From Sphaerotilus sulfidivorans (GTDB lineage Bacteria; Pseudomonadota; Gammaproteobacteria; Burkholderiales; Burkholderiaceae_C): a DNA stretch of 64,000 bases. Within the stretch, counting starts at the first letter, position 1. Every line of letters starts with the position of its first letter. The position numbers were made by a program, and so were the translations under genes. The notes under the pieces are model-generated. The model searched no databases. It was given only the letters and a program-made list of their open reading frames with translations, and was not told where the DNA came from. Below, piece after piece: positions 42,822-48,281 of this stretch. The stretch lies in NCBI RefSeq assembly GCF_013426975.1, contig NZ_JACCPY010000012.1, positions 1-64,000 of the forward strand, read 5' to 3'.

Positions 42822-42825
<4 letters not shown>

Positions 42826-43295
42826 GCGGCGGCTCCGGTGAACTCGATCGCGCCCTGCGGCAGCAGGTAGAGCACGAAGGCGCGCCCACCTGCGACGGTC
42901 GGCCGGTGCGCCGAGCCGGCGCCGTAGACGCACCAGCCCGCGCCGCGGCCGTCGAAGGTGGCGCCGGCGTCGACCGGCACGATCAGGTCGATCTCGCCGT
43001 GCGGATGGCGGTGGTGCGGGCCGGCGATGTTGCTCATGTCGACCACGTCGACCGAGCAGCCGGCCAGGTCGTCGGCGGCCTTGAAGATGCGGCCGTAGCG
43101 GATGCCGCCGCCCTCGCGCTGGCACAGCCAGCCCTCGGCCACGCCGGTGCGGATGGCCTCGGACAGCCGGGTGAAGGTGGGGGAATCTGCACCATGGTGC
43201 AGGTTCAGCCAGGCATCGAGCGTGTCGTCGAGCGGCCGACCGGCCAGCTCGGCTGCCAGTTCGCTCAGTGCGGCCCGGAAGGAGGCTTGTGACAT
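42822..43295 (-). CDS. DUF4863 family protein (4-hydroxylaminobenzoate lyase-like)
   Basis: A 157-residue cupin-like protein of the DUF4863 family. PHHRHPHGEIDLIVPVD carries the His cluster likely to bind a metal, and the protein ends LLPQGAIEF. Some family members are named 4-hydroxylaminobenzoate lyase, but homologues are regularly found as the first gene of box operons where that reaction makes no obvious sense. Its role in benzoyl-CoA catabolism is unknown. The promoter with TTGACA and flanking BoxR-type sites is directly upstream. Confidence 0.85.
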
Positions 43296-43319
43296 GATGG
43301 ATTGGCGGCTTCAGTGGGA

Positions 43320-43332
43320 TGCACTATTGTGC
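43320..43332. promoter_or_regulatory. Putative BoxR operator 1
   Basis: TGCACTATTGTGC contains the palindrome GCAC-N4-GTGC. It lies just downstream of the predicted -10 (43343-43348) of the minus-strand DUF4863-boxD promoter, where a repressor would block transcription. The same half-site recurs at 43373, 46533 and 46565. TGCA-rich palindromes are known targets of the related regulator BzdR. Confidence 0.7.
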
Positions 43333-43342
43333 GTTCTGGAAA

Positions 43343-43371
43343 ACGATAGTTATCACCCTGATCCGTGTCAA
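43343..43371 (-). promoter_or_regulatory. Promoter of the DUF4863-boxD-bclA-liv operon
   Basis: On the minus strand a perfect TTGACA (43371-43366) is followed after exactly 17 nt by TATCGT (43348-43343). The first gene starts 48 nt further on. It is flanked on both sides by putative BoxR operators. Confidence 0.75.
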
Positions 43372-43372
43372 G

Positions 43373-43384
43373 CAATATAGTGCA
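43373..43384. promoter_or_regulatory. Putative BoxR operator 2
   Basis: CAATATAGTGCA includes the GCA..TGC palindromic half-sites (GCAATATAGTGC) of the TGCAC family. It lies just upstream of the -35 of the boxD operon and over a TATAGT that could be the -10 of boxR, so it could mediate autoregulation. Confidence 0.6.
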
Positions 43385-43408
43385 TACATGGTGTTTCCCC
43401 TAGGCGCG

Positions 43409-44356
43409 ATGCAGACCTCCCGCAGCCCCGATTCCGGCCGCTCCGATGCCGGCCCCGCCCTTGCCGCCGACGAGGCCGGCGAGGCCAAGAACCCCTTCCT
43501 CGTCGCGCTGGGCGAGCGGGTGCGCGAGCTGCGTGCCCGGCGCGGGCTGACGCGCAAGGCGGTGGCGCAGATGTCCGAGGTGTCCGAGCGCCATCTGGCC
43601 AACCTCGAGTACGGCATCGGCAACGCCTCGATCCTGGTGCTGCAGCAGGTGGCGGGGGCCTTGCAGTGTTCGCTGGCCGAGCTGATCGGCGACATGACCA
43701 CCGCCTCGCCGGAATGGCTGATGCTGCGCGAGCTGCTCGAGCACCGCAGCGAGGCCGACCTGCGCCGCGCGCGCGAGGCGCTGGTGCGTCTGTTCGACGG
43801 CCCCGCAGCCGCGCCTGCGCAGCGCCGCCGCTGCATCGCGCTGATCGGCCTGCGCGGCGCGGGCAAGTCCACGCTCGGCCAGATGCTGGCCGATGCGCTG
43901 GGCTGCCCCTTCATCGAGCTGAGCCGCCAGATCGAGGCCTTCGCCGGCTGCAGCATCAGCGAGATCCACAACCTCTACGGCACCAACGCCTACCGCCGCT
44001 ACGAGCGCCGCGCGCTGGAAGAGGCGATCCAGATCTATCCGGAGGCGGTCATCGCCACGCCGGGCGGGCTGGTGTCGGACGCGGCCAACTTCAACCTGCT
44101 GCTGAACCACTGCACCACCGTGTGGCTGCAGGCCACGCCCGAAGACCACATGAACCGCGTCGCCGCCCAGGGCGACCTGCGCCCGATGGCGGCCAGCCGC
44201 GAGGCGATGGACGACCTGCGCCGCATCCTCGCCGGCCGCTCCGCCTTCTACGAGAAGGCCGACCTCACGCTCGACACCAGCGCCCAGGATCTGGAGGCGA
44301 CCTTCGCGCTGCTGCAGGCGCGGGTGGCCGAGGTGCTGGCCTCGGCGGCGGCCTGA
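43409..44356 (+). CDS. boxR: BoxR transcriptional regulator of benzoyl-CoA catabolism
   Basis: A 315-residue regulator with an N-terminal XRE helix-turn-helix (about 25-80; LGERVRELRARRGLTRKAVAQMSEVSERHLANLEYG by key residues). A C-terminal shikimate-kinase-like domain follows from about residue 140, with P-loop LIGLRGAGKSTLGQML and a GCPFIELSR segment. In the BzdR/BoxR family this second domain binds benzoyl-CoA and relieves repression. It is divergent from the boxD operon. The ATG at 43388 is an alternative start; neither has a clear Shine-Dalgarno. Its stop abuts the stop of the convergent STAND-like gene. Confidence 0.94.
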   Translation: MQTSRSPDSGRSDAGPALAADEAGEAKNPFLVALGERVRELRARRGLTRKAVAQMSEVSERHLANLEYGIGNASILVLQQVAGALQCSLAELIGDMTTASPEWLMLRELLEHRSEADLRRAREALVRLFDGPAAAPAQRRRCIALIGLRGAGKSTLGQMLADALGCPFIELSRQIEAFAGCSISEIHNLYGTNAYRRYERRALEEAIQIYPEAVIATPGGLVSDAANFNLLLNHCTTVWLQATPEDHMNRVAAQGDLRPMAASREAMDDLRRILAGRSAFYEKADLTLDTSAQDLEATFALLQARVAEVLASAAA

Positions 44357-45088
44357 TCAGCCCGCCGCATCGTCCGTGCGGCCCGGGTGGATGGCCTCGG
44401 TCTCTTCTGCCCTGGCTGCTGCAGCGTGTTCGGTGTCTCCGTGTGCTGCAAACAGGCTGGCCGCGCGCTGGGCGGCGCGGCGGCTTTGCTCCCAGTGTCC
44501 CAGTTGCCGATGCACGCGGGCGGCTTCCAGCAGCAGGTGGGCGGAGGGTCGCCTGTCGTGATCGGGCTGGCGGTCTTGCCGATCCAGGAAGTCCGAGATC
44601 TCGGCCAGTCGTTCTGTCAGGGCTGCGATGCGTGCGGGCTGTACCACCGGCACGGTGAAGTCCAGCACCGCCTCACGCCAGTTCCACAAGTCCGGTGCCT
44701 GGTGCGCGGCGGTGTCCACATCGGCCTGTGACAGCCACACCACCTGCAGCGTCGGCATCGCATCGGCCAGCCGCTCGCGCACGACGTTGGCTTGCTGCCA
44801 CCAGAGGTCGTCGTGCCGCGCATCCAGCGGAAGACAGACATGCAGGCGGCGCAGGCCTTGTGCGCATTGGGCTTCGCCTTGCCGCAGCCACGCGGCCGGC
44901 GGGTCTGCGGAGGTCAGATCGATCCGGGCGCCGGGCAGCACGGTGTCCAGACGGGCGATCAGCATGTCCCGGTAGTCCGGGTTGTCCACCATCGCCAGCA
45001 CCAGGCTGAAATGGCTGCGCCGCTCCCAGAGTCGCCTCAGCCGCAGGAAGGCGCCGGTGTGCTCGTCGAGGATGTCGGACGCTGACAT
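44357..45088 (-). CDS. Inactive-STAND/TPR-like partner protein, hypothetical
   Basis: A 243-residue protein of unknown function. The first ~145 residues follow the pattern of P-loop STAND-type domains that have lost Walker A: FSLVLAMVDNPDYRDMLIARL, QQANVVRERLADAMPTLQVVWLSQADVD and APDLWNWREAVLDFTVPV, with no GxxxxGK. The last ~70 residues are TPR-like helices (HLLLEAARVHRQLGHWEQSRRAAQRAA by key residues). It begins 4 nt after the upstream ATPase gene, so the two form one unit. The stop touches that of boxR. An iSTAND reading is pattern recognition only. Confidence 0.65.
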   Translation of the reverse strand: MSASDILDEHTGAFLRLRRLWERRSHFSLVLAMVDNPDYRDMLIARLDTVLPGARIDLTSADPPAAWLRQGEAQCAQGLRRLHVCLPLDARHDDLWWQQANVVRERLADAMPTLQVVWLSQADVDTAAHQAPDLWNWREAVLDFTVPVVQPARIAALTERLAEISDFLDRQDRQPDHDRRPSAHLLLEAARVHRQLGHWEQSRRAAQRAASLFAAHGDTEHAAAARAEETEAIHPGRTDDAAG

Positions 45089-45092
45089 GATC

Positions 45093-46412
45093 TCAGGGTG
45101 TTGCCAGCCTGGTCAGCGCGTTCTGGTAAGGCCGCAGCGTGCGCACCAGCGGATGGCTGCACCACCAGTAGCTGTTGTACTCCAGCAGCACCAGGTCATA
45201 GAGCAGCCGCAGCCGGGCCTCGGTGCGGTCCTTCTCCTCGCCCTGGGACTGGTCGATGGCCACCAGATCCGCCCAGTCGCTTTGCTGCACCAGACGGCGG
45301 TACTCCGAGGCCACTTCCTGCACGGCTTGTTCCGCGACCGTTCGCGTGATCTGGTCTCCGTCGAGCAGCGAGAAGCACGCGCGGATCAGGCGCAGCAGGT
45401 CGCGGACATGTCCGCCACTTTTCTGGACCAGCAGGCGCACGGTCTCCCGGTCATCGAAGCAGCGCAGCGGCATCCGCTTGAGCACCAGGTCGATCAGCGC
45501 ATCCTCATCCTGTTCACGCGGCGTGCCGTCCGCCTCGAAGATCTTCACCATCGGCAACTGCACCTTGGTGAAGCGTTGCGCGGTGATGCCGCTTTCCAGC
45601 AGCACCGAAATCGGGGCGCAGACGATCAGGTTGGTCATGATCTGACCCAGCTGGTTCACGTCGGCGTGGAAGAATGCCTGGGCGTCGTCCTTGGACAGCT
45701 TGTCCGTGCCGTCCATGATGAACAGCAGCGGTCCTCGACGCTGGTGCGCCAGCAGCGCGTTGGCGTGGGCGATCAGCGCGTTGAAGTGAACCAGCAGTTG
45801 CAGGAATCCATCCCGGATCTCGCGACGCAGCTCTTCCCGGTAGCTGGCGCCACCGCGCACCTTGGCGGTCATCGTGGCCATCAGGCTGGCCAGCCAGGGC
45901 AGGCCCCCTTGGGCCTTGATGTCGGTCTTGATCTCGCCTTCGATGTCCTTGAATCGCTCCTGCTTCACGATGCGGGTGTCGAACCAGCCCAGCACAGGGT
46001 TCAAGAACACCGGGTCGGGCCGCAGCGACAACTTCTCGTCTGCAAAGGTGTTCGTCAGGGCGTGGACCAGTGCGATCAGCAGGTCGCTGAAGCGCAGATT
46101 GTTGATGTCGAGGAGCTTGGTCAGCTCCAGATGGTGGACGGTGTAGGTCTGCTGGAAGAGCCGGGCGTAGTCGCGCAGTTCCGTCGATTTCCCGCATCCG
46201 ATGTGCCCGCCAAACAGCACTGCTTCGGCGTCCTTGGGCCTGGCGCCCGGGCGCAGCCTGCCCCCGCTGTCCAGATGGAAGGCGGTCAGCATCTTGCGGC
46301 GGCTGTACTGGCCGCGGTGCCCTTCGAGCGGGTGGTGAAAGGGGCTGTCCGGATCGATGTCACGGCGGAAATCGAAGTTGTCCTGATAGGACCAGATGCT
46401 CGGTTCGGTCAT
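45093..46412 (-). CDS. P-loop NTPase (AAA/STAND-like), hypothetical
   Basis: A 439-residue ATPase. Walker A is GGHIGCGKST (68-77), Walker B is LLFIMDGTDKLS (229-240), and a sensor-like VCAPISVLLES segment is near residue 265. A winged-helix-like C-terminal region (QKSGGHVRDLLRLIRACF; LLYDLVLLEYNSYWW) follows. The GCGKSTELRDYA form of Walker A is seen in uncharacterised NTPases of predicted conflict/defence systems. It is cotranscribed with the 44357 gene. It has no link by motif to benzoate metabolism although it sits between boxR and boxC. Confidence 0.75.
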   Translation of the reverse strand: MTEPSIWSYQDNFDFRRDIDPDSPFHHPLEGHRGQYSRRKMLTAFHLDSGGRLRPGARPKDAEAVLFGGHIGCGKSTELRDYARLFQQTYTVHHLELTKLLDINNLRFSDLLIALVHALTNTFADEKLSLRPDPVFLNPVLGWFDTRIVKQERFKDIEGEIKTDIKAQGGLPWLASLMATMTAKVRGGASYREELRREIRDGFLQLLVHFNALIAHANALLAHQRRGPLLFIMDGTDKLSKDDAQAFFHADVNQLGQIMTNLIVCAPISVLLESGITAQRFTKVQLPMVKIFEADGTPREQDEDALIDLVLKRMPLRCFDDRETVRLLVQKSGGHVRDLLRLIRACFSLLDGDQITRTVAEQAVQEVASEYRRLVQQSDWADLVAIDQSQGEEKDRTEARLRLLYDLVLLEYNSYWWCSHPLVRTLRPYQNALTRLATP

Positions 46413-46513
46413 GCGCGGCGCTCCAGGGGCATGCGCGGATTATCCGCATCCCTCCGCACCCCGGACTTTCCCTGATTTCTGGCGTCATCTCCGGCACATG
46501 AACCGGATTGCAT

Positions 46514-46542
46514 TTGCGCTGTCTCAAGACAGGCACTATGAT
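46514..46542 (+). promoter_or_regulatory. Promoter of the boxCBA operon
   Basis: TTGCGC (46514-46519) and TATGAT (46537-46542) are separated by 17 nt, 54 nt before the boxC ATG. The -10 lies inside putative BoxR operator 3. Confidence 0.65.
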
Positions 46543-46544
46543 GC
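46533..46544. promoter_or_regulatory. Putative BoxR operator 3
   Basis: GCACTATGATGC is a GCA/TGC palindrome like operator 1 (shared GCACTAT). It overlaps the -10 of the boxC promoter. Confidence 0.65.
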
Positions 46545-46564
46545 ATTTCATCCGCTCACCGAAT

Positions 46565-46576
46565 GCACGATCGTGC
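46565..46576. promoter_or_regulatory. Putative BoxR operator 4
   Basis: GCACGATCGTGC is a perfect 12-bp palindrome of the GCAC-N4-GTGC type, located 32 nt after operator 3 (start to start), three helical turns away, and 19 nt before the boxC ATG. Position and spacing suggest cooperative repressor binding. Confidence 0.7.
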
Positions 46577-46595
46577 GTCCCGCCAGGAGACTCCG

Positions 46596-48281
46596 ATGAC
46601 CCAGACCGCTGTTCCCGTCGCCCCCGTCGCTCCCGCTGCCGTCGACTACCAGACCCACCCGTCGCGCTACCGTCACTGGAAGCTGTCGTTCGAGGGCGCG
46701 GTCGCGACGCTGTCGGCCGACTTCGACGAGAACGCCGGCCTGCGTCCCGGCTACAAGCTCAAGCTCAACAGCTACGACCTGGGCGTCGACATCGAGCTCA
46801 ACGACGCGGTGCAGCGCATCCGCTTCGAGCACCCGGAGGTGCGCACGGTGATCGTCACCAGCGCGAAGGAGAAGGTGTTCTGCTCGGGCGCCAACATCTT
46901 CATGCTCGGGGTCTCCAGCCACGCCTGGAAGGTCAACTTCTGCAAGTTCACCAACGAGACCCGCAACGGCTTCGAGGACTCGTCGAAGCATTCGGGCCTG
47001 AAGTTCCTGGCTGCGGTGAACGGCGCCTGCGCCGGCGGCGGCTATGAACTCGCGCTGGCCTGCGACGAGATCATCCTGGTCGACGACCGCTCGTCGGCGG
47101 TGTCGCTGCCGGAGGTGCCGCTGCTGGGCGTGCTGCCGGGCACCGGCGGCCTGACCCGCGTGACCGACAAGCGCCGCGTGCGCCATGATCTGGCCGACAT
47201 CTTCTGCACCACCAACGAGGGCGTGCGCGGCCAGAAGGCCAAGGACTGGCGCCTGGTCGACGACATCGCCAAGCCGGCGCAGTTCGCCGCCAGGGTGCAG
47301 GAGCGTGCGCTGCAGCTCGCCGCGCAGAGCGATCGCCCGGCCGATGCCAAGGGCGTGGAGCTGACCCCGCTGGAGCGCACCCTCGAGGCCGACGCGCTGC
47401 GCTACAGCCACGTCACCGTCGAGATCGACCGCGCCCGCCGCGTCGCCACCTGGACGGTGAAGGCGCCGAGCGGCGCGCAGCCGACGGATGTCGCTGGCAT
47501 CGAGGCCGCCGGCTCGGCCTGGTATCCGCTGGTGCTGGCCCGCGAGCTGGAGGACGCCATCCTGTCGATGCGCACCAACGAGCTGGAGATCGGCACCTGG
47601 CTGATGAAGACCGCAGGCGACGCGGCGGCGGTGCAGGCGATGGACGCCACGCTGCTGGCGCATCAGGACCACTGGCTGGTGCGCGAGACGACCGGCCTGC
47701 TGCGCCGCACGCTCAGCCGGCTGGATGTGTCCTCGCGCAGCCTGTTCGCGCTGATCGAGGCCGGTTCGTGCTTCGCCGGCACCTTCCTGGAGCTGGCGCT
47801 GGCCTGCGACCGCAGCTACCACCTGGCGCTGCCGGACGACGAGGCCGCCGCGCCGAAGATCACCGTCGGCGAGGTCAACTTCGGCCTCTACCCGATGGCC
47901 ACCGACCAGAGCCGCCTGGCGCGCCGCTTCTACGGCGAGGCCGCGTCGATGGACGCGGTGCGCGCCGCGATCGGCCAGCCGCTCGATGCCGATGCCGCCT
48001 TCGCGCTCGGCCTGGTGACCTCCAACCCGGACGACATCGACTGGGCCGACGAGACCCGCATCGCCATCGAGGAGCGGGTGGCGATGAGCCCGGATGCACT
48101 CACCGGCATGGAGGCCAACCTGCGCTTCAACGGCGTCGAGAACATGGTCACCCGCGTCTTCGGCCGGCTCACCGCCTGGCAGAACTGGATCTTCCAGCGC
48201 CCGAACGCCGTCGGCGAGAAGGGCGCGCTGAAGGTCTACGGCAAGGGCGACAAGGCCGCCTTCGACTGGAACCGCGTCTGA
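46596..48281 (+). CDS. boxC: 2,3-epoxybenzoyl-CoA dihydrolase
   Basis: BoxC opens the ring of 2,3-epoxybenzoyl-CoA to 3,4-dehydroadipyl-CoA semialdehyde and formate. The 561-residue protein has two crotonase-like halves: KEKVFCSGANIFMLG and AVNGACAGGGYELALACD in the first, and LIEAGSCFAGTFLELALACDRSYHLAL (by key residues) in the second. It ends YGKGDKAAFDWNRV. Length and organisation match the known enzyme. It is the first gene of the boxCBA operon, with GAGA upstream of the ATG, and is preceded by two TGCAC-type operators. Confidence 0.96.
   Translation: MTQTAVPVAPVAPAAVDYQTHPSRYRHWKLSFEGAVATLSADFDENAGLRPGYKLKLNSYDLGVDIELNDAVQRIRFEHPEVRTVIVTSAKEKVFCSGANIFMLGVSSHAWKVNFCKFTNETRNGFEDSSKHSGLKFLAAVNGACAGGGYELALACDEIILVDDRSSAVSLPEVPLLGVLPGTGGLTRVTDKRRVRHDLADIFCTTNEGVRGQKAKDWRLVDDIAKPAQFAARVQERALQLAAQSDRPADAKGVELTPLERTLEADALRYSHVTVEIDRARRVATWTVKAPSGAQPTDVAGIEAAGSAWYPLVLARELEDAILSMRTNELEIGTWLMKTAGDAAAVQAMDATLLAHQDHWLVRETTGLLRRTLSRLDVSSRSLFALIEAGSCFAGTFLELALACDRSYHLALPDDEAAAPKITVGEVNFGLYPMATDQSRLARRFYGEAASMDAVRAAIGQPLDADAAFALGLVTSNPDDIDWADETRIAIEERVAMSPDALTGMEANLRFNGVENMVTRVFGRLTAWQNWIFQRPNAVGEKGALKVYGKGDKAAFDWNRV

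Follow-up and report, generated by a model that had tools for sequence, protein, structure and literature searches.

A two-gene module of a P-loop NTPase and a TPR-type partner, possibly a conflict system, in the boxR–boxC gap of Sphaerotilus sulfidivorans

The gap between boxR and boxC in the benzoate gene cluster of Sphaerotilus sulfidivorans holds two minus-strand genes, which encode a P-loop NTPase and a smaller partner protein and which recur side by side and in the same order in proteobacteria and also on plasmids of cyanobacteria. The window, i.e. the whole 64,000-nt stretch of DNA that was analysed (NZ_JACCPY010000012.1, positions 1 to 64,000), contains one copy of this pair between boxR and boxC. 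Walker motifs are found in the NTPase gene only, both genes are under constraint, and the partner differs from copy to copy in its C-terminal TPR arm, which is missing in the window. We lean slightly towards the explanation that the pair is a transferable conflict-type (immune) signalling module occupying an accessory-gene site of the box cluster.

The NTPase gene (45093..46412, minus strand) encodes 439 aa and has relatives down to about 22–26% identity. An earlier note on this DNA had placed GCGKST at residues 72–77 and had named MDGTD as Walker B, and both readings hold exactly. The complete Walker A motif is GHIGCGKST (residues 69–77; 46182..46208, minus strand), recovered by motif scan and in alignment A2, and Walker B is LLFIMDGTD (residues 229–237; 45702..45728, minus strand). 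In A2, which has 12 members and reaches cyanobacteria, G69, H70, G72, G74, K75 and T77 of Walker A and D234 and D237 of Walker B are invariant, and the two motifs expected of an active STAND/NACHT subunit are intact. The GK[S/T] core of Walker A is present in 21/21 NTPases and the full GxxxxGK[S/T] in 20 of them, the remaining protein (L106) having S in place of the first G. As to the class of the NTPase, Pfam gave no match to a curated STAND/NACHT family: NACHT scored E 0.0029 and 17.9 bits versus a cut-off of 26.7, AAA_22 scored E 0.023, both are below the gathering cut-offs, and the relatives L022 and L102 likewise stay below the NACHT cut-off. PDB sequence searches with the NTPase and with the profiles of both proteins returned weak matches only, and the model of the NTPase (pLDDT 41) was too poor for a structure search.

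The partner gene (44357..45088, minus strand) is a 243-aa ORF whose ATG at 45088 follows the NTPase stop codon (45093–45095) after 4 nt, as the earlier note had it. Both genes have intact homologues and dN/dS of about 0.12–0.39, which argues that neither is a chance ORF. The N-terminal part of the partner, about 145 aa (44651..45085, minus strand), is an uncharacterised, predicted alpha/beta domain with N..RE and APDLWxWR motifs, delineated with alignments A1 and A5, a leave-out HMM and predicted secondary structure. Four residues, F26, N100, R103 and D132 (numbered in an aligned fragment that begins at residue 2), are unchanged across the 21 members of the alignment, among them L093 but not L020. 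GK[S/T] is missing throughout the window partner and occurs in 0/21 partner cores, so that loss of Walker A, which is necessary and not sufficient for an inactive STAND (iSTAND) protein, extends to all 21. The earlier note had read a STAND domain lacking Walker A into this half. The lack of Walker A stands, whereas the inactive-STAND fold is unproven. Alignment of the partner domain to the NTPase by hhalign gave a probability of 0.5%, or 2.5% with more members, and a convincing Pfam match was seen in 0/21 members, the four single-member matches having E of 0.03–0.1. The AlphaFold2 model of the partner, built from four sequences (window, L013, L014 and L015), has an alpha/beta pattern; with this weak model (pLDDT 64) Foldseek found nothing in the PDB at E<=0.001, and among the best 50 of 1169 matches ORC, Hda and clamp-loader chains appeared at E 0.13–0.3 amid unrelated proteins. 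The TPR-like character that the note had given to the C-terminal half is weak in the window protein taken alone, where the only Pfam matches, TPR_2 (E 0.069) and PDEase_I, are sub-threshold. It is supported by predicted helices at residues 151–172, 180–196, 199–215 and 219–233 (segment 151–233; 44390..44638, minus strand) and by relatives, in which this segment precedes a TPR array.

Pairing of the two genes is nearly universal among the copies compared. In 21/22 loci with downstream DNA read, drawn from proteobacteria and cyanobacterial plasmids, the gene that follows the NTPase bears the partner domain; the two genes form a conserved module. For 16 of these 21 loci the assignment comes from BLAST, alignment to the closest relative or the A1 profile. 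The five most distant partners were recovered by a profile from which they had been excluded (L017, 4.8e-17; L019, 6.7e-18; L020, 1.1e-17; L008, 4.6e-8; L010, 8.1e-8), the best of 300 shuffled control sequences reaching E 0.19. In the exception, L018 from Calothrix, the second position is taken by an NTPase-like protein that carries a TIR domain and to which the partner-domain profile gave no match. The 22 loci exclude L016, L092, L107 and L108, where the sequence ends inside or right after the NTPase, weaker matches such as L003, L009, L011, L012, L029, L031 and L032, the plasmid matches H2, H3 and H7, and the pairs on contig C1 of genome G694 and contig C218 of genome G691, the adjacency of which was taken from coordinates.

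The module is rare, recurs repeatedly and lies mostly outside box clusters. Box genes accompany it in 2/25 fetched loci, L013 and L014 (loci of 2–13 kb, short ones included, one place present twice, and boxB rows left out). In the genus, the NTPase profile matches 5/13 genomes (G692 only partly), the partner domain 4/13 and the box-linked pair 2/13. Wider tallies are lower bounds because at most four candidates per genome were scored. With the own genome counted in each, they comprise at least 10/299 genomes of the family with NTPase relatives at E<=0.001, five of these stronger than 1e-60, at least 5/399 genomes of the order with either profile, and at least 9/398 of the phylum at E<=1e-15. 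A further NTPase paralogue is encoded on contig C101 of the own genome. GTDB genome contigs yielded four NTPase loci, and seven plasmid records, all cyanobacterial, carry NTPase relatives; phage records gave no NTPase match, and two scans of viral contigs with both profiles confirmed no relative.

In many relatives the partner extends into TPR repeats. Stop-to-stop lengths are 585 aa in L013, 740 in L021, 487 in L022, 1216 in L023, 586 in L024 and 524 in L090, the array of L024 being of uncertain length because it comes to within 100 bp of where the contig stops. L021 (5974-7074) contains nine tandem 123-bp TPR units with 91% match, which points to recent amplification; Tandem Repeats Finder found no tandem array in L013, so that recent amplification is documented for L021 only. 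The L015 partner is also short, with about one TPR unit by a unit counter that is crude and serves as a rough guide only. On a Nostoc plasmid (L017) the core is followed by a helical-looking stretch, judged by eye, and then by nSTAND1 and WD40 domains (Pfam), and the L019 partner resembles it by eye. The window partner comprises the core domain plus the first part of the helical region, and the array is absent. It aligns with the L013 and L014 partners to about 44396, and its stop codon lies some 30 nt further on, at a junction shared with L013. The window gene ends at the point where the arrays of these two relatives start. The 243-aa protein is a shortened version of a partner that in most cases is a longer TPR protein, a point that the earlier note had missed. 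Repeat collapse during assembly was considered as a cause of the short partner and set aside, since neither a repeat unit nor a recognisable C-terminal tail seems to be left.

Domains fused to or replacing parts of the pair were seen at two further loci. On the Calothrix plasmid, L018:5297-7393 encodes the NTPase-like protein with C-terminal TIR that takes the place of the usual partner. L090:7405-10065 encodes an NTPase whose N-terminal part contains SLFN_AlbA_2 and HATPase_c_4 domains, next to a usual partner. The TIR and the SLFN_AlbA_2 and HATPase_c_4 domains are attached to the NTPases, suggesting that outputs are exchangeable.

The box cluster around the pair is well defined. The boxR flank (43319..44356, plus strand, ORF as listed) matches NF006015 over residues 45–342 (E 2e-133) and the boxC flank (46599..48281, plus strand) matches TIGR03222 (E 4e-294); other box genes encode BoxB (TIGR03225), BoxA (TIGR03224), 3,4-dehydroadipyl-CoA semialdehyde dehydrogenase (NF008868) and benzoate-CoA ligase (TIGR02262). 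Between the semialdehyde dehydrogenase gene and boxR lies a gene for a 157-aa protein (42825-43295), which recurs in the stretches of nine relatives and gave no NCBIfam match at 1e-20; it is provisionally labelled DUF4863. The pair is antisense to its flanks, and the stop codons of boxR (44354–44356, plus strand) and the partner (44357–44359, minus strand) abut in the palindrome TGATCA (44354..44359), confirming the contact between the two stops described in the note. Compared with the empty site of G690, the insert spans 44357..46454, its left end being set at the boxR stop and the blastn match resuming at 46455; against G694 the match resumes at 46461. Four BoxR operator-like sites were found in the window versus 0.04 expected from shuffles. 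Two of them, each with three mismatches to the consensus given in PMC6449761, fall in the stretch from the NTPase start to the boxC coding region (46531..46546, plus strand, and 46563..46578, plus strand, the latter in the boxC start region), suggesting that the insert left the control region of boxC in place.

Eleven genomes of the genus, including that of the window, have a readable boxR close enough for a comparison of the site. The gap is empty in G690, G687, G686 and G689, where the boxC match begins 111–232 bp past the boxR stop. G694 has an acyltransferase gene (PF01757), G692 has MarR, DUF4139-type and PepSY-type genes, G058 has MarR, HEC-02A, HEC-02B and DUF4139-type genes, and G691 (contig C31, locus L013) has MarR, HEC-02A/B, DUF4139 and PepSY genes together with the NTPase/partner pair. 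In G688 a glycosyltransferase gene (L086:2464-3978) follows boxR and boxC was not found in the 10-kb stretch, and in G248 the contig ends at the site. Gene families were scanned on L013, L080 and L086 and assigned elsewhere through similarity to L013. The gap is thus a turnover site in the genus. TGATCA occurs at the boxR stop in 2/11 genomes, those of the window and G691, which are the only carriers of the pair among the 11. HEC-02A and HEC-02B (L013:1039-2663) match PADLOC models at 6e-119 and 1e-59, and the G058 copies (L082:3116-4746) are 85–91% identical to them. A second contig of the G691 MAG (L014) carries MarR, DUF4139 and PepSY genes and the pair. The boxC matches of L013:1-348 and L014:1-348, both from this one Sphaerotilus MAG, end at the same boxC point at the contig end, and the pair copies of the two loci are diverged; they represent either two strains or two box clusters.

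Base composition agrees with the idea of an independent inserted unit, as the note had proposed and as the four empty gaps support: GC3 is 0.86 in the NTPase gene and 0.81 in the partner gene versus 0.95–0.96 in boxR, boxC and boxA. With dN/dS of 0.12–0.19 for the NTPase and 0.21–0.39 for the partner, both genes are constrained and the partner evolves faster. Synonymous divergence between the window and L013 is 0.40 for the NTPase, 0.53 for boxR, 0.45 for part of boxC (116 codons) and 0.76 for the partner, boxC rows versus G690 having been left out of the comparison. The similar values for NTPase, boxR and boxC suggest that the pair was probably resident at the site before the lineages of the window and L013 split and that it was later lost in close relatives. 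Simple vertical descent is put in doubt by the partner value of 0.76 and by the comparison of L013 with L014, in which synonymous divergence is 0.40 and 0.80 for the pair versus 0.12 for boxC; exchange at the boxR–boxC site is therefore possible.

Such losses bear on an explanation that we regard as a serious contender, falling somewhat short of an even chance, namely that what remains in the window is decaying: the sensor would have gone when the TPR array was deleted, and the pair would be drifting to loss. The end of homology with L013 and L014 about 30 nt before the shared stop junction fits this picture, as does the close relationship of the window to genomes that lack the pair at the site, the BoxR proteins of G690 (empty) and G694 (acyltransferase) being 97–98% identical to that of the window. 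Both ORFs are intact, however, and the short L015 partner indicates that brevity is not confined to the window. Furthermore, the window partner has not evolved faster than its relatives, dN to the outgroup L015 being 0.49 for the window, 0.51 for L013 and 0.46 for L014, a measure in which a recent truncation would not show. Decay is compatible with the immune-module explanation; under the latter, the window probably holds either a pair reduced to its core or one that has recently lost its receptor arm.

Comparison with described systems gives the immune-module explanation its context. PMC10907252 and PMC8195603 describe STAND-type switches that carry repeat receptors as established or predicted immune devices. 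Among the closest known systems is the nSTAND2 two-gene system, which according to PMC8195603 is a mobile operon of an active P-loop NTPase and a protein without NTP-binding motifs, the latter fused to variable modules, with a predicted counter-invader role. The pair described here shares the two-gene layout, with Walker motifs in one protein only and variable modules on the other. In the nSTAND2 system, unlike here, the STAND label is given to both proteins, and the effectors on the inactive one are mainly GT4 or HEPN; our partner bears TPR or nSTAND1-WD40, its STAND nature is unproven, and the two systems were compared by description only. Neither GT4 nor HEPN is among the Pfam matches listed for the scanned partners (the best 25 of 58 for L017 and the best 25 of 29 for L008). 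The MoxR-vWA ternary systems with iSTAND or iSTAND2 are similar in being NTPase-dependent and in having a third, inactive-NTPase component that is thought to sense invaders (PMC7159879 and PMC8195603). By contrast, the insert in the window consists of two genes without MoxR or vWA and, at this locus, is flanked by box genes, and the window NTPase has no MoxR match in Pfam. Single-chain antiviral STAND proteins (PMC10907252) likewise couple a P-loop switch to a TPR-type sensor, whereas here the switch is on one chain and the repeats are on another, and no effector domain was recognised. Similarity to the KAP NTPase family (PF07693) is seen in Calothrix L018 (3941-5242), which scores 24.7 versus a gathering cut-off of 20; the window NTPase, unlike L018, has no KAP match at E<=1.

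Searches for a direct link to defence gave a mixed picture. Neither window protein matched PADLOC 2.0, PHROGs or NCBIfam at E<=1, relatives of the NTPase gave weak PADLOC matches only (e.g. PDC-S20 at 9.5e-5 and mad8 at about 1e-3), and ten ORFs flanking pairs at other sites had no PADLOC match at 1e-6. A name for the pair was not found in the literature searched, which covered few subscription papers. A pair and a candidate defence system in one interval are known for L013 only, which counts against the conflict reading, as does the lack of the presumed sensor arm in the window copy. The suggestion of the earlier note that the pair belongs to a biological conflict system is nevertheless plausible in view of the variable arrays, the TIR, nSTAND1-WD40 and Schlafen-type fusions and the presence of HEC-02 at the site in two genomes, which together point to a putative defence role.

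If the pair is such a module, the NTPase would be a STAND/KAP/AAA-like P-loop protein that acts as an ATP-dependent switch. The N-terminal alpha/beta domain of the partner, which has no nucleotide-binding motif, would most likely dock physically on the NTPase, and the C-terminal TPR arm would recognise a ligand. Binding of the ligand would be relayed to the NTPase by the domain without a P-loop, leading to nucleotide loading and assembly into oligomers, and the assembled NTPase would elicit a growth-stopping or defence response. No effector domain was recognised in either window protein, so the output may be recruited via other proteins.

The same architecture could in principle belong to a signalling or chaperone module of STAND/MalT-like type that has nothing to do with invaders, its NTPase and TPR partner responding to a signal of endogenous or nutritional origin. 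We consider this unlikely. It would account for the matches to TPR_MalT in the partners of L021 and L024 (above the cut-off only in L021), for non-significant Foldseek matches to TPR proteins such as PlcR (among the best 50 of 1169) and for the neighbourhoods of other copies, where the six flanking ORFs (of the ten) that were scanned belong by Pfam to ordinary metabolic, transport and regulatory genes, e.g. malate synthase, hrcA, dapA-type and LysE-type. However, Pfam recognised no DNA-binding or enzymatic output domain in the window pair, the distribution is patchy, and the variation of the arrays and the TIR, nSTAND1 and Schlafen-type partners suit conflict systems better. A sensor or regulator tied to benzoate catabolism and co-controlled by BoxR, which the note had offered as an option, is very improbable: the NTPase gene and boxC are divergent in the window, and the operator-like sites at 46531 and 46563 are some 120–150 bp from the NTPase start codon, but box genes are rare among the fetched loci, the NTPase genes of L013 and L014 are separated from boxC by 4.4 and 2.8 kb that contain other genes, operator-like sites were seen by eye also at the empty G690 site and in G694, and four genomes of the genus have no gene at all between boxR and boxC. 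The recurrence of the pair outside box clusters, which is the neighbourhood comparison the note itself had suggested, rejects a role confined to benzoate metabolism. Co-control of the NTPase with box genes, if any, would be a local feature, considering the genes that part it from boxC in L013 and L014 and the 2/25 loci with box genes.

Returning to the immune-module explanation, we tentatively extend it to an undescribed module across proteobacteria and cyanobacteria, in a form that we would hold with clearly less than even confidence. The Pfam-less N..RE/APDLWxWR domain would be the nucleotide-free companion of a P-loop switch, and the exchangeable receptor arm would grow and shrink by repeat amplification. 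The window copy would represent the arm-less extreme, maybe a core or a silencing form, and the boxR–boxC gap would be a small site of defence-gene turnover. If this is true, a compact switch-plus-receptor system would join the known candidates for bacterial immune modules; its window proteins have no match among the NCBIfam, PHROGs and PADLOC models and none to a Pfam family above the cut-off. The split of the system into two chains and the natural range of arms, which runs from no repeats to nine or more, would open the way to direct tests of how STAND-like NTPases are activated by repeat receptors. The locus also illustrates that a small site for accessory genes can exist inside a catabolic operon.
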